Origin: Candidatus Altimarinota bacterium
GTDB lineage: Bacteria > Patescibacteriota > Gracilibacteria > BD1-5 > UBA6164
DNA: 64,000 nucleotides
Reading direction: 5' to 3'
NCBI GenBank assembly: GCA_028713225.1
Contig: JAQTOS010000002.1
Location: forward strand, 1-64,000
Positions 4,667 to 63,718 of the stretch are shown here, piece by piece. Under the pieces are notes generated by a model. The model did not search any database. It was not told where the DNA came from and worked only from the letters and a program-made list of their open reading frames with translations. The stretch's first letter is position 1, and each line of letters starts with the position of its first letter. The translations under genes and the position numbers were made by a program.

Positions 4667-5647
4667 ATGATTTACTTATTCACTTGAAATAGTTCATACT
4701 TAATAGAAAAAAAAGTACAATCTTGGAAGAAAGCTTTTATAGATAAGTTTTGAGATTTTAATTTATTACATATTAGAGATTTATCCCAGATTAGTCAGGA
4801 TTTTTTGCGAGAAAATTTGTTATCAAGTCCATTTTTGGGAGATAAAAAAGTGATAATAATAGAAGATTTTTTCAAAAAAGCAAAGGCAAAAAAAGATGAT
4901 GAGGAAGATAATAATGATGATACTAATACTAGTAATTTAAATGATTTTTTATTAAATATTTTTCCTCGCATCCCTGAAAATAATATAGTAGTTTTGACTT
5001 CAACTAATATTTTAAAAGCTTCAAAAATATATAAATTTATCAAAGAGCACGGGAAAATAGAAGAATTTGATATAAAAGATGATATTGATTTGAAAGATAA
5101 TTTACAAAAAATATATCCAAATTCTATTGATTCTAGAGCACTTGATTTGATTATTTCATACAAAGCTGGAGATATTTATAAAATAGTAAATGAAATAGAT
5201 AAACTACATATTACAAATGATTTTATAGACTCAAAAATTATAGAAAATTTTGTTATTCCAGAGCTAGAACAAAATATTTTTCCACTTCTTGATGATTTCT
5301 TAAATCTGAAGAAAAATCAATTTTTTTCAAAACTAGATACAATATTACAAAGAAATTCATATTTTCAATTTTACTGGAGTTTTCTTTCTAATCTTAGATT
5401 TTATGTATATGTTTACAAGCTTAAATCTGACTCTTATACTTCAAGAAAAATAGTAGAAGATTTATGACTAGGTAATAGATGATTTTTAGTTGATAAAAAT
5501 TACGCAGTATCTGCTGAAAAATTATTTAAAGTTTTTGAAGATATTGTTGAGCTTGATTTACAAATGAAATCTTGAGATTTTGTAGGTTCAGCTGAAGAAG
5601 ATTTTAAATTTGAACTTGAAAAAGTTTTACTGAATTATTTTGCTTAA
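4667..5647 (+). CDS. holA: DNA polymerase III delta subunit
   Basis: 326 residues. HolA opens and loads the sliding clamp as part of the clamp-loader complex. The N-terminus MIYLFTGNSSYLIEKKVQ has the family pattern (F-x-G-x(n)-Y-L-I), with the strand KKVIIIEDFFKK and the segment NNIVVLTSTNILKASKIYKF typical of the non-ATP-binding RecA-like fold, and a helical C-terminal collar (NSYFQFYWSFLSNLRFYV). An unusual acidic stretch (DDEEDNNDDTNTS) near residue 75 is an insertion. Start at the first ATG; TGA supplies several glycines, including TGN near the start. Confidence 0.85.
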
Positions 5648-5673
5648 GAGAGGATTTATATCTTCTCTTTTTT
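5645..5673 (+). terminator. Terminator after holA
   Basis: Arms aagaga(gga) and (tatc)ttctctt followed by a T-run, overlapping the holA stop codon. It marks the left limit of the standard-code segment that follows. Confidence 0.65.
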
Positions 5674-5677
5674 GTAT

Positions 5678-5709
5678 TTGACAATACTTACAAAATCATT
5701 ATATATAAT
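5678..5709 (+). promoter_or_regulatory. Promoter of the 5789 gene
   Basis: TTGACA at 5678-5683 and an ATATATAAT box at 5701-5709. The spacing is about 18 bp if TATATA (5702-5707) is the -10 element. Confidence 0.55.
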
Positions 5710-5788
5710 TATAAGCATATTATTAGTAGGTGGGGAAAATTGTTTCTTTGCTGAAAGAGTATGCGAAAATCCATATAAAGGATTCGTC

Positions 5789-7147
5789 ATGAATCTGTTA
5801 ACAAGAGCTATTAAAAGAATGTTTGGTGGAAAAAATACCCCTATTTACATCAATTCTGATGATAAATGGGAAATTTACCCAAACAAGTATATGCTTGATA
5901 ATGGTGAAACGCAAGTTTCTCATATTGCATTGACGGATAAATATCCTGATGCTGAAATTTTAGTTGATTATTTCAACTTGGACCCCAAAAAAGTTGTTTT
6001 CTTCGTGAGAACTAACAAGGTTTATATTCCATACTCAAATCCTATCGCTATTTTGAATGATATGGATGAATCTGCTGGTGCAATATTTATCGACCCCCAA
6101 AATGGTATGTCGTTTGAAACCTATCTTTATAATGTTTCTTTACCAGTTGATGTATATTCCTATGGTAGAGATATGTCAGATACAGAGTTTTTTGGAAGAA
6201 GAACTTTGGGGAATAGAAGATGTGAATTAAACTCAATTTTCCATTCTCTTCCGACAGAAATTTCTCTTTTGCAATCTATGTTTGGGAATGGAACACGAGA
6301 AATTGCTCCCAAACTTTTGAAGTATCTTTCAAAACTGGAAGTTACTGGGAAAAATTCACCAATTTTTTACTCTCTTGTATTTGCGGATAAAGCTTTCCGT
6401 GAAAATTTGAAAGCATTTGAGGGAAAATATCGAGACCTGAAACAAAAAGCTACTTCAAGTGAGAGAGTTTTTCATCCTTTACCATTTGAATTTAGTGGTT
6501 CTAAGGGGGGATGGGAAAAATGTTTAAAATATGCAAATGAAGGTATTGTTGAGGATGTTCTTGATGAAAAAAAGCTTTTTGATTCAATTGCTGAAATTTT
6601 CCCTGAATTTGCAAAGATTTGGGAAATAGAGAAAAGACGAGCTGAATTTATTTCAGCAAATGCTTTACAAAATTGGTTTTCAGAAACATTTCCATATATT
6701 CGCTATAATGAGGATTCTATTTCCTCTCGTAGAGAAGGGAAAACTGTTACCAATGCATTTCGTTATTTGCTTTATGCACTAGATGAGCTCTATGACGGAT
6801 TTTTACCGGCTGTGGAAAAAGGTGAATTTGATTTTTCACAAAAACCTTATCCTGGTTGTCAATTTGGAACAAGTCGAGCGAAACCAAATGACATTTCTCG
6901 ATTTTTCGAGATTACTCATATCTTGGATGGTCTTAATGATGAAGCTAAAATTTCATTTGTTAATATGTCATCTGAAAAAGCTATTCGAGATCAGATTGAT
7001 ACAAAGGCAAATATTATAATCATGAAATTGCCGGTAATCTATACTGAAAACCTGCAAATCAAGTGTGAACTTGAAAAAAAAGCTGAAGAGTCTTTTTATA
7101 AGGGATTAAAAACCCTTGAAATTGAAGCTAAAGTATACTGTTTTTGA
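5789..7147 (+). CDS. Unknown 452-residue protein, standard-code gene ending in TGA
   Basis: I do not recognise the family; the protein looks soluble, with no signal peptide or membrane segment. The start ATG at 5789 follows AAAGGATT at ribosome-site distance, so an upstream in-frame extension to 5672 is probably not translated. All of its roughly 28 glycines are GGN. The gene ends in TGA (7145-7147), and a strong terminator begins 10 bp later. Under the local code this TGA would be Gly and add 14 residues encoded by the terminator stem before TAA. TGA as a stop and the use of CGA/CGT for Arg indicate an origin in a standard-code genome. Confidence 0.75.
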   Translation: MNLLTRAIKRMFGGKNTPIYINSDDKWEIYPNKYMLDNGETQVSHIALTDKYPDAEILVDYFNLDPKKVVFFVRTNKVYIPYSNPIAILNDMDESAGAIFIDPQNGMSFETYLYNVSLPVDVYSYGRDMSDTEFFGRRTLGNRRCELNSIFHSLPTEISLLQSMFGNGTREIAPKLLKYLSKLEVTGKNSPIFYSLVFADKAFRENLKAFEGKYRDLKQKATSSERVFHPLPFEFSGSKGGWEKCLKYANEGIVEDVLDEKKLFDSIAEIFPEFAKIWEIEKRRAEFISANALQNWFSETFPYIRYNEDSISSRREGKTVTNAFRYLLYALDELYDGFLPAVEKGEFDFSQKPYPGCQFGTSRAKPNDISRFFEITHILDGLNDEAKISFVNMSSEKAIRDQIDTKANIIIMKLPVIYTENLQIKCELEKKAEESFYKGLKTLEIEAKVYCF

Positions 7148-7156
7148 AAAACATTT

Positions 7157-7183
7157 TCCGACCTATTTTGGTCGGATTTTTTT
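7157..7183 (+). terminator. Terminator of the 5789 gene
   Basis: Stem tccgacc/ggtcgga with a six-base loop, then seven T. It sits immediately after the TGA stop. Confidence 0.9.
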
Positions 7184-7189
7184 GTATAA

Positions 7190-7217
7190 AAAAGCCCACT
7201 CTTTTTGAGAGTGGGGG
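7190..7217 (-). terminator. Terminator of the 7308-7886 gene
   Basis: Perfect stem cccactct/agagtggg (7195-7202 and 7208-7215). On the minus strand it is followed by CTTTTTT, as expected for a gene transcribed leftwards. Confidence 0.85.
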
Positions 7218-7307
7218 ATGAGATAATTTAAAATTATCTTGTAAATTTAATCAGGCAGATAATATAAGCTAATCTTATTTATCACCTAAAAACATTTTTA
7301 TCGCTTT

Positions 7308-7886
7308 TTACGCAGATGCCGATTGATCTTGTTCGGATGCTGCGATGATTTTGTTTACCGGATTGAATTCGTTTGCACAAATAATCATTTCAGTTGCCAG
7401 TTCTGCGCTAGGTTCCGCAAAAGTGATTGGCATACCAGATGAATTTGTCATGAAAAGCATTAAGCCATCACTGTGGATTTTAGCTTCGGCTGAAGATTCA
7501 TTACTTGCAACAGTCATTGAAATCGCGTAATCACCATTTTGAAGCAATGAAGTTTGCGTCAATTTTTTTTGCAAACTAATATTTTCATCAATGTTATTCA
7601 TTGTATGCAACATAGTGAATTCACCGTTTTGCTTGTTCTTGAGCACGAGTGCTAGTACATTTGTATCGTGATCAGGGTTGAAAGCGATGTGTTTGTATTT
7701 TGAACTTTGTAAAACAACGTCATTGTTTTCTTCATCTCCGGTGATTTTCCCAATCAGGTCATATTTATTTTCATCGACGAAATCAAGAGCTGAAACGGAT
7801 TGTTTGTTGATTGTATCAAATTGTGAGCCTTCAATAGAGGCAGCAAGAAGTGTAGCAACAGAAATACTTAACAGTGTTCTTTTCAT
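7308..7886 (-). CDS. Exported protein of unknown function, probably acquired
   Basis: 192 residues with a Sec signal peptide (MKRTLLSISVATLLAAS, likely cleavage near residue 20). The mature part is acidic with no cysteine motif apart from one Cys near the end, and I do not recognise a family. All seven glycines are GGN and the stop is TAA. An AGGTGAAAG ribosome site precedes the ATG. It converges on the 5789 gene, each with its own terminator, so the two form one block of standard-code-like DNA of about 2.3 kb. Confidence 0.7.
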   Translation of the reverse strand: MKRTLLSISVATLLAASIEGSQFDTINKQSVSALDFVDENKYDLIGKITGDEENNDVVLQSSKYKHIAFNPDHDTNVLALVLKNKQNGEFTMLHTMNNIDENISLQKKLTQTSLLQNGDYAISMTVASNESSAEAKIHSDGLMLFMTNSSGMPITFAEPSAELATEMIICANEFNPVNKIIAASEQDQSASA

Positions 7887-8286
7887 TTTTTTTCTTTCAC
7901 CTGATTTTTCAGGATTTTCTTTTTTTTAATTTTTGCCACTTTTAATAAGATTTAAAGTATTTAGTTCATATTCGAACTTTTGGTTTAAATACTAGACTTC
8001 TTATAAAAATGTTGGAGGAATATATGTATAATTAAAAAATAGTCAAAACTTTTTTATATAAAAAATAGGAAAAATTAAGAAAATAATTTTTCCTACGATT
8101 GACTTATTAGTATATTACCTTATAAATATATCTTATTTTTTGTGAAATATTTGACTTTTAAAAACTAAAAAGTAAAATAAGTATAACTTTTCTTACTTGT
8201 AGGAAAACGTTAAGCCTTAAATTTATGGGATTTATATAGCAGTATTTAAGTCCCATAAATAAATATTTAATAAAAATAATAAAAAT
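7887..8286. other. Gene-free AT-rich stretch with two hairpins
   Basis: About 400 bp without a supported gene. It holds the upstream region of the 7308-7886 gene, a perfect 11-bp hairpin at 8067-8094 (aggaaaaatta/taatttttcct), and a looser inverted repeat tttatggga/tcccataaa near 8222-8259. The right border of the acquired segment must lie here, but I see no target duplication. Confidence 0.5.
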
Positions 8287-8508
8287 ATGCAAGAGAAAAA
8301 ATGCACTATGAAGCTTCATGGGACAACTACAGTTTGACCTAAGTGACAAGTCGTTATTCCTAAAGAAGTTAGAGATCTTTTAAATATAAATCCAGGTGAT
8401 AGTATAACTATTGTAACAAAAGATAATAAAGCTGTTGCTATGATTAAAAATGAAGATTTAAAAGAACTTTTTGAATATATAAAAAGTGAGGGAATAGAAT
8501 TAGAATAA
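8287..8508 (+). CDS. AbrB/SpoVT-type DNA-binding protein
   Basis: 73 residues. The swapped-hairpin AbrB fold is visible as TTTVGPKGQVVIPKEVRDLLNI followed by NPGDSITIVTKD; these proteins dimerise and bind AT-rich promoters or act as antitoxins. A short C-terminal helix (LKELFEYIKSEGIELE) follows. No toxin gene is adjacent; 22 bp downstream begins the RND efflux pair, so it may regulate that operon (inference). An internal ATG at 8311 is an alternative start that keeps the whole domain. Confidence 0.85.
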
Positions 8509-8530: not shown

Positions 8531-10507
8531 ATGAAAAAAATAATAGGAATTTTAACATTATCTACTTTTGTTCTTGCTTCTTGTTGAAGTACAAGTGTAG
8601 TTGAACAAAAACAAGTTGTAGAAAAAAAATATGCAAAAATTGAAACAATTGCATTATCTAATTTTGCAGAAGAACTTAAATTGACTTGAAAAATTGCAGC
8701 CAGTAAAGAAACTGTAATTTCAGCTCAAATTTGATGATCTATAAAACAAGTAAATTATAAAGTTTGAGACAGAGTAAATGCTGGAGATGTTTTGGCTGTT
8801 GTTGACGATAAAGCTAATTTACTTTCTGTAAATTTACAAAATGCTGCAAATTCTTATGCGAATGTAAGTGATATTTATACTCTTACAAAAGAAAGTATTT
8901 TAAAAGATTTGGATTCAGCTAAATTACAACTTCAAAATGCAAAAACATCTAGAGATAATACATATAAAACAACAGATGAACAATTAAAATTGGCAAATAC
9001 TCAACTTGATAATGTAAATACTACAGATAAAAATACTAAAGATACATCTGGTATTGCTATAGATTTATCAAAAAAATCTTTGGAAACTGCTAAAATAAAT
9101 TTAGCTAATTTTGAAAAAAATTACTTAGAAACTATTTCTTCTCTTAATACTAAAAATAAAAATTTATTAAAAAATATAGATTCTAGTATAAATTCTAGTT
9201 TAACTTCTATAGATTCAGCTCTTACTTATGCTGATACTATACTTTGAATAAGTTCAGAAAATAGATATCTAAATGATTCATATGAAGTTTATTTAGGAGC
9301 AAAAGATACTTCAACAAAAACAAAAGCTGAAACTGATTATACTGCGGCTAGAACTTATTATAATAAATTAAATTCTTCTAATGATGATACATTAACTCAG
9401 TTGGATAATTTAAAAACTTTAGCTGATAAAACAGTTACTCTTTATAATGATTTAGTAAAAGTTACAGATAATTCAATAGTTTCATCTTCTTTTAATGATG
9501 CTACTTTAGCGGCTATGAAAGCAAGTATAAAAGCTAATCAAGCTACAGTTCTTTGAGTTAGGGCTACTGTTATAAATCTTCAAAGTTCTCAAGATGATTT
9601 AGCTTCAACTATATCAAGTACAAAAACTAGTTTAGAGACTCAAAAAACATCTCTTAATCAAGCTATTGTTATAGCAGAAACTAGTTTACAAAATACTTTA
9701 AGTTCTACAAATACTAATTTAGATAGCATTTCTGGTAATAAAACTCTTTTACAAAATCAATTACAAAGCACTATAGCTACTATAAAATCTTCAAGAGATG
9801 CTGTAGATAATGCTGTTAAAATAGCAGAGAATGCTTATAATTCTTCAAAAGCCAAACTTGATGCTAGTCTTGCTTCTACAAAAAATCAACTTGATTCTAG
9901 CGCTGGACAAAAAAATCAAGTATTACAACAAATAGATAATACTCTTATAAAAGCTCCATTTTCTGGAGTAATTACTGCAAAAAATATAGAAATTGGTCAA
10001 ATGTTAGGAGCAGGAACTCCAGCATTTTCTATATCAAATGAAAATTCTCAAATAGTAAAACTTGACCTAAATTCTGATAACATTAAGTTTGTAAAAATTG
10101 GACAAGAAGTAATTATTTCAAAATCTTGAAAAGAAATAAAAGGGAATATAAGCCTTGTTTCAGCTTCTGCTGATTCAGTTACAAGAATGTACAAAGTAGA
10201 AGTTAGTTTTGATTTTACAAAATTTTCTGGTGTAGTTTTGGGTGATTATGTAGATGTATTTATGAAAAAAGAAACTGGAACTGATGCTAATTTAATTGTT
10301 ATTCCTTTTACAGCTCTTATAACTTCAAGTACTTGAGATTTCTCAGTTTACAAAATTTGAAGTGGAAGTGTTCTATCTTCTCAAAATATAAAAATTTGAG
10401 CTTCAAATTCTCATGAAGTAGTAGTTACTGATTGATTAAAAGTTTGAGATAAAATAGTAACAGAAGGAACTCTGAATTTGAGTGAAGGTGATACTGTACA
10501 AGAATAA
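8531..10507 (+). CDS. RND efflux membrane fusion lipoprotein, very long hairpin
   Basis: 658-residue periplasmic-adaptor (HlyD/AcrA-type) protein. Lipobox LASC near residue 19, then a lipoyl-like half domain (ISAQIGGSIKQVNYKVGDRVNAGDVLAVVDD), an alpha-helical region of roughly 370 residues rich in Ser, Thr, Asn and Leu, then the second half (IKAPFSGVITAKNIEIGQML) and beta-barrel segments. Typical adaptors are near 400 residues, so the hairpin is far longer than usual. It is followed by the RND pump with a 17-bp gap, so the two are co-transcribed. No outer-membrane channel gene is adjacent, consistent with a cell that may lack an outer membrane. Confidence 0.88.
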
Positions 10508-10524
10508 TTATTAAACAAAATTTT

Positions 10525-13500
10525 ATGACAAATAAAATAGAATCAAAATATCTAGCTGCTCTAGAATATGATAAAAATCTTGATAAATCTTGGTATGCTT
10601 TTTTCATAGATAGAACTAGATTTACTATACTAATTATTATGATGATAGTAGTTGCAGGTTATTTGTGACTAAAAAGTCTTCCTCTTGAATCAAATCCAGA
10701 AATAAATATTGGAATTGCTTCTGTTATTGTTACTTTGCCTGGAGCAAGTCCAGAAAGTATGGAAGATTTGGTGACTAAAAAAATAGAAAAAGAAATCGCG
10801 AAAATAGATGGTATTGATACTATTACATCTACTTCACAAAATTCAGTTTCGGCTATTACTGTACAATTTAAATCTACTGTAAATACAACTGAAGCTGTTA
10901 GAGATATGAAAGATAAAGTAGATGCTGTAAAATCTCAATTACCAAGTGATGCTAAAGATCCAATTGTAAAAGAATTTTCTTTTTCAGATACTCCTATTTG
11001 GACTTTTTCAGTTTCTGGAAATTATGATGGATTTGCCCTTTATACTTATGCTAAAAAAATTAGAGATGAACTTGAAAAAAATCCACTTATTTCTGAGGTT
11101 AAAATATCTGGTTGATCTGAAACTGAATATTTAGTTAGTATAGATCCTAAAAAATTAGAAAATTACAATCTTAGTTTAACAAGTGTAAACCAAGCTTTGC
11201 AATCAGTAAATATGACTATGCCAATAGGAAATTATGATATTGGAGATTATACTCATAGTTTATCTGTTGATGAGAGATTTTATAATATAAATAAGATAAA
11301 AGACATAGTTGTAACAAAATTTGGTGATACTGGAACTATTACTTTAAAAGATATTGCAGATGTAAAAGAATCTCCAAAAAAAATCACTTCTATTTCTAGA
11401 ATGAGTGATGCAGGATGAAAAAGTCAAAATGCAGTAACATTATCAGTTGTAAAAAAAACTTGAGGTTCAATAGTAAACTTAGTAAATGAAGGACAAGTTG
11501 CACTTGACGAAATGCTTCTCAAAAAAACTATTCCAAGTGATTTAAAAATAACTACAATAGTAGATCAATCAGAAAGAATTAAATTAGATTTATCTCATCT
11601 TATAAGAGATTGAATAATTACAGTACTTCTTGTATTTATTACTTTGTTTTTGATAATTTGAATCAAAGAAGCTCTCGTTGCTTGAGCTGCCGTTCCACTA
11701 GTTTTCTTAATAACTTTTACAGTTATGGCTGTGGCTGGACAGACTTTGAATTTCCTTTCAATGTTTGCTCTTATCTTATCTCTTTGACTTTTAGTTGATG
11801 ATGCGATAGTAGTAATTTCAGCAATAAATCAGTATAAAAAAACTGAGAAATTTACGACTAGAGAAGCAGCTATTTTAGTACTTCGTGATTATCATAAAGT
11901 ACTTATTACTACCACTTTGACGGTTGTTTGGATATTTTCATCTATGCTTTTTATGACATGAATGATAGGTAAATTTATATTTTCTATTCCTTTTGTTATA
12001 ACTATTACTTTACTTGCTTCTCTTGTTATAGCTCTTACTATAAATCCAAGTTTGGCTGTAATGTTTTCTGGAAAAGATGATAAAATATCTTCTGATTCTA
12101 TCAAAATTAGATGAAAATCTAAGTTTAAAGAAAAATTAAATCAAGCCCTAAATTCTGGATTTATTTCGCTACATCCTTTAGAACAATTTTATGGTAAAGT
12201 TATTACTTACTTAATTTCAGAAAATAAAAGAGTAAGAAATTTGTTACTTTGAACTTTGCTTTTGTTTTTTTCTGCTTTGGTTTTACCAATTTCTGGAATA
12301 TTAAAAAGTGATTTTTTCCCAAAATGAGATGCTGATAATTTATATATAAATATGGAAGCTGAGGCTGGAACTAAGCTTGATAAAATGAGTAAATTAGCAT
12401 TAAATGTAGAAAAATTAGTATTAAAAGAAAAAGAAGTTTCATCATTTTCTACTTCTATCGGATGACTTGCTTCTGTAGGGAAATCATCTGGTTGAAGCTC
12501 ATCTTCTTCATCAAATTATGCAAATATAAGTATAAATCTTATAAAATCAGAATATGGTAGAAAAGAGTCATCTATTGATATAGCCGAAAGACTAAGACAA
12601 GAAGTTAAAAATATAAAAGACTTCAAAGTTACAGTTGTAGAATCATCTTCTGGACCTCCAGCTTGAGGGGATTTCGAATTAAAAATTTCAGGTGATGATT
12701 TCATAGTTTTGGATAAAATTTCATCTTATGTTAAAAAAACTCTGCAAACTATTCCTGGAGCTATAAACATAGATACTTCTAGAAAAGCTCTTCCTTTTGA
12801 ATATAATTTTGCATTAGATAATTCTAAATTAGCTTTATATGATTTGAGTATTCCACAAGTATCAAGTTTTTTGAAAAATGCTATAGATTGAGTAGAATCA
12901 ACAAAAATTTATAAATGAACAGATGAAATAATTGTTAGAACAAAGTACGATACAGCATCAACAGATACTCTGGATAAAATCAAAGATTTGAAATTATTAA
13001 ACAATAAATGACAATATGTTTATTTGAGAGATATTGTCCAAGAAAAATTTAAAGCTTCAGTTTTTTCTATAACTAGAATAGACCAAGAGAGAATAGTTTC
13101 TGTTACAGCAAGTGCTGCTAAATGAGTTACTTGAGCTCAAATACTTGCGGAATTTAACAAGAAAACTGCTAATTATACATTGCCTTCAGGTTACCAATTT
13201 ATAACAGGTTGAGCAAATGAAGAAAACCAAAAATCAGTTATGAGTTTGCTTATCGCACTTGTATTTGGTATGATTTTCATCATCGCAACTTTGATATTGC
13301 TTTATGATTCATTTAGACAATCAGTTTTAGTTCTTATAACTATTCCACTTTCTCTAATTTGAGTATTTTATGGATTAACTTTATTTGCTCAACCACTTAG
13401 TTTCCCAGGTCTTATCTGACTAGTTGCACTTTTTGGTATAGTTGTAAGAAACTGAATAATTCTTTTTGATAAGATAAACCAAAATCTATGAGAAAATATT

Positions 13501-13728
13501 CCATTCAAAGAATCTATAATAGATGCCTGAATGAGCAGACTAGAACCAGTAGTTCTAACTTCTATCTGTACAGTTCTTGGTATGGTTCCACTTACTCTAA
13601 GTAATCCTACTTGGACATCTCTAGGACTTTCTATAATATTCTGACTATCAGTTTCAACAGTCTTCACACTGCTTGTACTTCCAAGTTTGTATTATATGGT
13701 GTTTAAGAAAAAGTATGGAGTTAAATAA
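10525..13728 (+). CDS. RND-family efflux pump (AcrB/HAE1 type)
   Basis: 1,067 residues, normal for inner-membrane RND pumps that export drugs or envelope compounds using the proton gradient. Visible: first membrane segment (TRFTILIIMMIVVAGYLG), porter-domain motif LPGASPESMEDLVTKKIE, the membrane block with GLLVDDAIVVISAINQY holding the paired Asp of the proton relay, and the second repeat (LFGIVVRNGIILFDKINQN, LTSICTVLGMVPLTLS). Several glycines of these motifs are TGA. It forms an operon with the adaptor gene upstream and ends at a terminator. Confidence 0.93.
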
Positions 13729-34597: not shown

Positions 34598-34628
34598 GGC
34601 TGTCATTAAATGACAGCCAATTTTTTTG
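34598..34628. terminator. Bidirectional terminator after the complex cluster
   Basis: Arms ggctgtcatt/aatgacagcc around one base, with T-runs on both strands. It overlaps the stop of the 34606 gene. Confidence 0.85.
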
Positions 34629-34956
34629 TGATTTCTTCGCAGACTGGATTACTCCACCCGAAAAGGTAACCATTTTCAGCGATTTCGGCGACAACAGGGA
34701 TTAATGTGTTTTTTATGAAGTTTATATTAACCTCATTTAGGTACAAAATTCCCATAAATGATTTTACCTCAAAAAAGTATCCCTTTTCATTAGGTGTTCT
34801 TAAAAAAATAATTTTTTTATTGTATTCTTTAAGAGAATCAGGATCATTTTTTCTTATGCTATGTACAAATGAAAAATATAAGTATTCATCATTTCCAACT
34901 AGTGATGAAAGCCGTTTAGTTCTACCTAAATATTTTACATTGCTAATGTACGCCAT
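34606..34956 (-). CDS. Unknown 116-residue protein, probably acquired
   Basis: Soluble, with no motif I recognise (MAYISNVKYLGRTKRLSS... ends EEITKKLAVI). It has six GGN glycines and no TGA. GAGGA precedes the ATG at normal ribosome-site distance, a TTGACA promoter lies 70 bp upstream and the terminator overlaps the stop. In the window this promoter-SD-gene-hairpin unit is repeated for other standard-code-like genes. It is inserted between the hyf-like cluster and nth. Confidence 0.7.
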   Translation of the reverse strand: MAYISNVKYLGRTKRLSSLVGNDEYLYFSFVHSIRKNDPDSLKEYNKKIIFLRTPNEKGYFFEVKSFMGILYLNEVNINFIKNTLIPVVAEIAENGYLFGWSNPVCEEITKKLAVI

Positions 34957-42742: not shown

Positions 42743-43099
42743 TTAGAAAAAGTATACAATCGCTGAGTTTATAATAATAATTAAGCAATTTAGTACAAAA
42801 CTAAAAAATAATAGCCCAATGCTTATATTTTTATTCTCGGTGATAACCGTTTTTTCGATTTCTTCTATTTCTACGGTTTCACTTGTTAATATATTGTCTT
42901 CTACTTTATACATTACATAGGGGGTTTTAATTCTCCACATAATAAATAGAAGCCACATTAAATTTATCCCAAGCACAAGAAACAAAGATGCTAAGTTTGG
43001 TTTTATAGTAAGATTTATTACCGCTGATAGTAATACTAACATTAAAAACTTACTCATAACATCAATTTTATAATATGCGTAAAGAACAGTAACTTTCAT
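42743..43099 (-). CDS. Small membrane protein, probably acquired
   Basis: 118 residues from the ATG at 43097-43099, chosen over an upstream in-frame ATG because AAGGAAAAGGA precedes it. Three membrane segments (about 17-33, 41-55, and 95-116) with an acidic loop (NILTSETVEIEEIEKTVITENK). No TGA codons; few glycines, all GGN. A TTGACT/TATAAA promoter lies upstream and a hairpin downstream. No family recognised. Confidence 0.65.
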   Translation of the reverse strand: MKVTVLYAYYKIDVMSKFLMLVLLSAVINLTIKPNLASLFLVLGINLMWLLFIMWRIKTPYVMYKVEDNILTSETVEIEEIEKTVITENKNISIGLLFFSFVLNCLIIIINSAIVYFF

Positions 43100-57295: not shown

Positions 57296-57736
57296 CTAAA
57301 CTTCTTCTTCTTCCCATTCAGGTTTTTTTTCTTTATCACCTAATTTTTTGTTTTTATACTCTAGTATTACATAGCTTACAACTAAAATAAAAATTGTTGT
57401 AGCAGCTTCAATCATATAAGTATGTTCAAGTATTAGGAAACGAACAGTTCCTGTTGCTCCAATGTAAAGAAGATATCTAAAAGGAAAGTGATAGTTTTCC
57501 TCAAAGTATTTAACAATCATTGCAACAATTTCAAAGTAGATAAAAAAAAGGAAAATCTTTTTTAGGATTTCATGTCCATCACTTTTGACAGAAATTACCT
57601 CTAATCCAATTCCATATATTTCGGAAATCATTAGAAGTATTCCAAGAATAGCTATGATTGTAATAAGAATATTTAGAGAATTTCTTAAATACCTTGCTAC
57701 TGTAAGTCTATGAGGATTTGATTTTATTTGTGTCAT
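57296..57736 (-). CDS. psiE: PsiE-like membrane protein, probably acquired
   Basis: 146 residues with four membrane segments. It closely follows the PsiE (phosphate-starvation-inducible) pattern, with FIYFEIVAMIVKYFEENYHFPFRYLLYIGATGTVRFLILEH as the family core. PsiE is common in Proteobacteria; its role is not well defined. No TGA codon, TAG stop, AAAGGAG ribosome site and own TTGACA promoter and hairpin. It stands as an isolated unit between resident genes, consistent with transfer from a standard-code bacterium. Confidence 0.85.
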   Translation of the reverse strand: MTQIKSNPHRLTVARYLRNSLNILITIIAILGILLMISEIYGIGLEVISVKSDGHEILKKIFLFFIYFEIVAMIVKYFEENYHFPFRYLLYIGATGTVRFLILEHTYMIEAATTIFILVVSYVILEYKNKKLGDKEKKPEWEEEEV

Positions 57737-63085: not shown

Positions 63086-63718
63086 TTAATCTTTATTTTT
63101 TATAATCTTATCAATAAGTCCATAAGCAAGAGCATCTTCGGCAGTCATATAATTGTCTCTGTCACAATCAACTTCTACTTTTTTGATATCTTGACCTGTG
63201 TGTTTAGCTAAAATTCCATAAAGTCTAACTCAAGTTTTTAGAATATGTTCTGCTGCAATTCTGATTTCTGTAGCTTGTCATTCAGCTCATCCTAGAGGTT
63301 GGTGAATCATTATTTCTGAATTTGGAAGAGAATATCTCATTCCTTTTGTTCATCCAGCTAAGATTATAGAACCCATAGAAGCGGCAAGTCATACACAAAC
63401 TGTAGCAACTGGACATTTTACATATTGCATAACATCATAGATTGCAAGACCAGCTGTAACATGTCATCCTGGAGAATTAACATACATAGTGATTGTAGCT
63501 TTTGGATCTCGTTTTTCTAAGTAAAGAAGTTGAGCAATAACAGTATTTGCAACCATAGAATCGATAGCATCTCAAAGAAATATAATTCTATCTTCTAAAA
63601 GTCTAGAATATATATCATAAGCTCTTTCTCATTGTGGAGTTTTATCTATTACAGTAGGAATCAAAGTTCCTGTTACTGGAGTTCTTTTTTTAGCCACTTT
63701 TTTAGTTACTTTTGCCAT
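63086..63718 (-). CDS. clpP: ATP-dependent Clp protease proteolytic subunit
   Basis: 210 residues, normal. Catalytic triad: Ser114 (GLAASMGS), His139 ([10 protein letters not shown]) and Asp184 ([16 protein letters not shown]). [19 protein letters not shown] is the conserved oxyanion region. A basic N-terminal extension ([13 protein letters not shown]) is slightly longer than usual. ClpX/ClpC partners are not in the window. Confidence 0.96.

Follow-up and report, generated by a model that had tools for sequence, protein, structure and literature searches.

Standard-code genes that seem to persist in a bacterium reading UGA as glycine

The genome of Candidatus Altimarinota bacterium (GCA_028713225.1; here G000) reads UGA as glycine, and the stretch of 64,000 nucleotides analysed here (the window; positions 1 to 64,000 of contig JAQTOS010000002.1) carries, between resident genes with TGA glycine codons, a 452-codon gene written in the standard code. 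This gene belongs to a class of TGA-free genes with Shine-Dalgarno (SD) leaders, which lie dispersed among resident genes, mostly one at a time, and possess their own promoter, SD leader and terminator. The account cautiously favoured here is that a standing class of solitary, laterally acquired standard-code genes persists in bacteria with UGA as a glycine codon, either through repeated re-import or through selection against TGA. The features of the locus are listed in Table 1.

Table 1. Features of the 452-codon gene and its surroundings (window coordinates, except for the 16S rRNA tails)
Feature	Position	Strand	Remarks
Resident left neighbour	4667..5647	+	5 of 10 Gly codons are TGA
Terminator-like hairpin of left neighbour	5646..5669	+	
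Promoter-like TTGACA-N16-TATATA of 452-codon gene	5678..5705	+	10/12 matches
Shine-Dalgarno AAAGGA of 452-codon gene	5777..5782	+	6 nt 5' of ATG
452-codon standard-code gene	5789..7147	+	23 GGN, 0 TGA; GC3 0.22 (residents about 0.12)
TGA in stop position of 452-codon gene	7145..7147	+	
Intrinsic terminator	7157..7183	+	stem 7157-7176; T-run TTTTTTT 7177-7183
Next in-frame TAA after 452-codon gene	7187..7189	+	42 nt past TGA; T-run end about +40
Terminator of convergent gene	7195..7215	-	
Convergent 192-codon gene	7308..7886	-	7 GGN, 0 TGA; GC3 0.33
Shine-Dalgarno AGGTGA of convergent gene	7897..7902	-	
AbrB-like (presumed) small resident gene heading ancestral operon	8287..8508	+	precedes MFP in G001 and ten other relatives
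MFP-type adaptor, resident	8531..10507	+	13 TGA; 70% identical, syntenic in G001
RND transporter, resident	10525..13728	+	27 TGA; 82% identical, syntenic in G001
16S rRNA 3' tail, G000	L252 about 2929-2990 (G000:C16)		
16S rRNA 3' tail, G001	L253 about 2930-2990 (G001:C100)		

TGA makes up 52% of the glycine codons in the resident genes of the window and none of those in the 452-codon gene, in agreement with the sequence-only reading, which had described the latter as standard-code DNA inside a UGA=Gly genome. The probability of finding zero TGA among 23 glycine codons is 5e-8 at the pooled resident rate and 6.6e-4 when the variation between genes is taken into account by a beta-binomial distribution fitted to 551 resident genes; the absence of TGA alone is thus not unique to this gene. 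The case for a standard-code origin is made by zero TGA combined with the SD leader, the codon usage and the stop position. The codon usage is unameliorated, being poor in ATA, with CGA and CGT arginine codons and GGG glycines, and the gene departs from the resident type in its rate of TGA glycine, in its SD-led start and in having no TAA or TAG before the inferred transcript end. Its promoter-like motif was missed by a generic scan that demands T as the last base of the -10 element. One gene of the RF family (PF03462) and a tRNA with a UCA anticodon are present in the G000 genome, which is consistent with code 25.

That TGA occupies the place expected of the stop is supported by the homologue from a second species (G001, see below), in which TAA occupies the same alignment column. 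The stem of the terminator starts 9 nt past this TGA. As had been predicted, reading with code 25 extends the frame by 14 residues (GKTFSDLFWSDFFV) up to the next TAA; however, this TAA lies beyond the T-run, so that the message is probably non-stop for the resident ribosomes, which would probably run off a transcript ending at the terminator.

Among 353 genomes of the taxonomic class, the sole homologue of the 452-codon gene (36% identity), besides one marginal 51-residue match, was found in the other examined member of the genus, 'Candidatus Gracilibacteria bacterium STF1_204' (G001; record JAQVPN010000007), and the family consists of these two members only. The G001 gene sits upstream of the AbrB-MFP-RND genes, as in the window, while the opposite flank differs; in ten other relatives the operon occurs without a homologue of the 452-codon gene upstream. 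The G001 homologue has 10 GGN codons and no TGA, among neighbours that write most of their glycines as TGA, and shows a GC content of 22%, a GC3 of 0.12, an SD leader and a TAA stop. A chimeric assembly, which the sequence-only reading had admitted, or contamination, is hardly credible: nothing besides the odd composition speaks for it, whereas the operon-side junction recurs in the independent assembly of G001, a finding that removes the chimera, and several genomes have single genes of the class flanked by TGA-rich residents.

Recent transfer, the other proposal made from the sequence, is doubtful if taken as one event. It does not fully account for a TGA-free, SD-led homologue with 36% identity at the corresponding place in G001, and the pattern recurs in other families and genera; the window copy itself may nevertheless be a recent arrival, because its GC3 and codon usage are unameliorated. 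The search for a donor taxon that had been suggested yielded none. Neither the 353 genomes of the class and 380 genomes sampled from the phylum nor phage and plasmid sequences, IMG/VR and a pattern scan of GTDB genomes gave a homologue of the 452-codon gene outside the genus (the marginal match excepted), pattern scans being of a kind that misses distant homologues, and matches of ClpP and NMO in plasmids named no donor phylum. The protein had no match above chance in Pfam, NCBIfam, PHROG, PADLOC or PDB, and AlphaFold run on the two-sequence alignment of the family reached a pLDDT of only 39.

The convergent neighbour was also correctly said to be free of TGA, although this absence is weak taken alone (P about 0.02); the gene does, however, have a GC3 of 0.33 and an SD. 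Its N-terminus resembles a signal peptide, as judged by eye; no homologue of it was found, and there was no match in Pfam, NCBIfam, PHROGs, PADLOC or PDB. The resident gene on the left is presumably holA-like. Further candidates for the class in the window, which are TGA-free and either GC3-high or SD-led, lie on the minus strand at 182-487, 34606-34956, 42743-43099 and 57296-57736, and a resident ClpP gene containing TGA is located at 63086-63718. The MFP genes of genus g24, which belongs to the same order (L118, L120, L122 and L123), have 0 to 3 TGA, unlike those of family f1: within the order, TGA use differs strongly.

The counts for the class cover 0.91 Mb of G000 (73%) and 43% of G001. 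The TGA-free genes of G000 form two groups, one with resident-like GC3 and one with GC3 of at least 0.16. In the second group an SD of 5 or more nt precedes 13 of 15 genes, compared with 7 of 604 residents (Fisher 3e-20; the GC3 and SD length thresholds were set by inspection, and the SD and TGA statistics assume that genes are independent), and in G001 all four TGA-free genes have an SD, as does one of 331 residents. High expression was considered as the cause of TGA absence and rejected. None of the eight TGA-free residents with low GC3, a group of ribosomal genes and others presumed to be highly expressed, has an SD of 5 or more nt, so that the class is not explained by high expression; in both instances where such a ribosomal-type gene has an orthologue in the 43% of G001 examined, the orthologue contains TGA.

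The class includes ClpP, NMO, a YkuD transpeptidase, a CDP-alcohol phosphatidyltransferase (CDP-OH), an HDOD protein, an RNB nuclease, a glucosaminidase and MBL-fold hydrolases; several members are hydrolases, among them ClpP, RNB and beta-CASP nucleases, an MBL-fold hydrolase and the glucosaminidase, and one is a phospholipid-synthesis enzyme. Several class genes end in TGA, and in 9 of 10 TGA-ended genes with a terminator (G000 and relatives together) no in-frame TAA or TAG precedes the end of the T-run. Most are preceded by a TTGACW-N16-TATAAR promoter. The idea of a class-specific promoter was dropped, since this motif also precedes resident genes; it is therefore not specific to foreign genes and is probably the local promoter. 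At 10770-12164 of L050 (G000:C8) two genes of the class are adjacent, one for a YkuD-type transpeptidase and the other for a second ClpP; the latter ends in TGA just before a terminator. An SD-led RNB-domain gene (L073, 6289-7860, minus strand) contains a single TGA where RNase R homologues have arginine, which looks like a CGA-to-TGA change after arrival.

Three families of the class are common to G000 and G001, namely the 452-codon gene, CDP-OH (44-48% identity) and geneB (240 residues, 35%), and each lies near the same gene on one side in both species, with one gene between geneB and the shared neighbour in G000. The G001 copy of geneB, TGA-free and SD-led, is located downstream of the orthologue of the left neighbour in the window, the spot held in G000 by the 452-codon gene; relatives of geneB in two further genera are TGA-free too. 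The CDP-OH gene of G001 (L234, 2731-3348; G001:C85) carries an internal TAA and is apparently decayed, the copy at the G000 locus being intact.

A TGA-free CDP-OH is encoded in five species of genus g4 at a single locus, next to a 441-residue gene common to all five; the CDP-OH proteins are 71-83% identical and the neighbouring proteins 77-93%. In the nine conserved glycine columns of CDP-OH the codons GGA, GGT, GGC and GGG interchange (seven columns vary), and TGA occupies 0 of 45 cells, which are not independent, the copies being related by descent. The glycine columns of the neighbour gene interchange TGA and GGN. Two of the five CDP-OH copies stop with TGA. The copy in G029 is recombinant: its interior has an identity of 0.95-0.96 to G022, the leader and the downstream gene of about 0.88-0.95 to G035, and the terminator is like that of G035. 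As judged from these identities, the mosaic shows recombination inside the gene, and its donor may be another Gracilibacterium. In G044, from another genus, a TGA-free and SD-led ClpP shares 72% identity with the ClpP of the class in G000; it uses TGA for 0 of 17 glycines, and its other codons are close to those of G044 residents. The constraint is not universal, as TGA is present and an SD lacking in the CDP-OH homologues of G008 and G010, which belong to the same family.

The canonical 3' tail of 16S rRNA reads GGTTGGATCACCTCCTTA (GGATCACCTCCTTA), and in both G000 and G001 it is altered to GGATGGACTATCTCCTTA (GGACTATCTCCTTA). The altered tail still pairs with AAGGAG. The leaders GAGGTGAT and GGGGTGAT of several class genes fit the canonical anti-SD and pair incompletely with the tail GGACTATCTCCTTA of their own ribosome, which suggests that they arose on a canonical ribosome. 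Resident genes mostly have no SD leader; together with the altered tail, this possibly reflects a family-wide change in translation initiation.

On the favoured account of a persisting class, the source would be host bacteria, or phages and plasmids around them, and the genes would escape erasure into the local dialect. Standard-code DNA would enter by uptake or by phage, and the unit would then establish itself in an intergenic site between residents, where such genes are seen. Thereafter the frame may be overwritten repeatedly by homologous standard-code sequence, or TGA may be selected against, or both; the pattern is observed, and in either case GGN codons would change among themselves and never to TGA. 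The positions of stops and terminators suggest that TGA-ended copies probably give non-stop or extended products in the resident cell, in which case these copies would be recent imports, or be tolerated, or be read where TGA stops. A single transfer does not explain why, at shared loci, diverging copies remain without TGA and keep their SD leaders. Counting against the favoured account, the searches yielded neither a donor genome nor a standard-code homologue of near identity, and a family of just two members is too small for tracing the history of the window gene. The decayed members (CDP-OH of G001 with its internal TAA, and the RNB gene with TGA at an arginine position) fit plain turnover of acquired genes, and an AT-rich donor with the standard code could mimic copies that appear ameliorated but TGA-free.

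It is possible, though rather improbable, that the class consists of nothing more than ordinary recent horizontal transfers, that is, independent and not yet ameliorated acquisitions of host genes, with the G001 copy acquired separately. The GC3, codon usage, SD leader and TGA stop of the window gene would all be expected from this, the examined 43% of G001 lacks homologues of most G000 class genes, and a CPR relative has been reported with horizontally acquired genes and probable import of host DNA (PMC8080830). On the other hand, for three families the homologues have one flank in common between the two species, a TGA-free gene is retained at a single locus by five species of g4, and the copies in G001 and G044 are AT-rich and yet TGA-free.

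The avoidance of TGA despite GGN turnover and despite amelioration would also be accounted for if these were genes in the dialect of the host (no UGA glycine, canonical SD, UGA stop), kept because decoding takes place inside a host or prey, or on elements that the host shares. This would be selection against TGA in its strongest form. TGA stops without backup before the terminator, leaders that fit the canonical anti-SD and not the own 16S, and the autonomous promoter-SD-ORF-terminator design point the same way. This reading is nonetheless unlikely: the class promoters also precede residents, some copies are broken, the window gene has no effector-like annotation, and we know of no route by which these bacteria deliver DNA or RNA into a host. 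A still smaller likelihood attaches to the class genes being cargo ('morons') of phages of Gracilibacteria compatible with the standard code, left behind in the chromosome. Phages of this kind, compatible with code 11 and without in-frame TGA, have been reported (PMC10746230), and class genes are autonomous transcription units; but those phages keep backup stops near TGA (PMC10746230), which the class units mostly lack, pattern scans of IMG/VR gave no relative of three class families, the 452-codon family is absent from the phage and plasmid records searched, and the surroundings of the window locus showed no obvious phage genes. The persistence of a standing class through re-import or selection remains the account preferred here.

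It has been proposed that a genome becomes isolated from foreign genes when a stop codon is reassigned. The genes described here cross this recoding barrier and seem to keep their standard form afterwards, with exchange among synonymous glycine codons and without entry of UGA. They offer a direct way to study gene exchange between recoded parasites and their hosts, as well as termination without RF2 and a possible use outside the recoded cell.

In their design the class genes resemble phage morons, which are likewise solitary promoter-SD-gene-terminator units; the class genes, however, are chromosomal, and no prophage is apparent at the window locus. Code-11-compatible phages of Gracilibacteria and Absconditabacteria (PMC10746230) are similar in having no in-frame TGA, in being able to use TGA as a stop and in being readable in both codes, whereas the class consists of single chromosomal genes between residents, mostly without a backup stop before the terminator and with no phage homologue found. 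In Vampirococcus lugosii, a CPR bacterium with code 25, 126 horizontally acquired genes were described, and import of host DNA was proposed (PMC8080830). Those genes are alike in their lateral origin and in a recipient that reads UGA as glycine; the class differs in that TGA-freeness, SD leaders and TGA stops are kept at loci shared by related species, although the copies have otherwise ameliorated or recombined.
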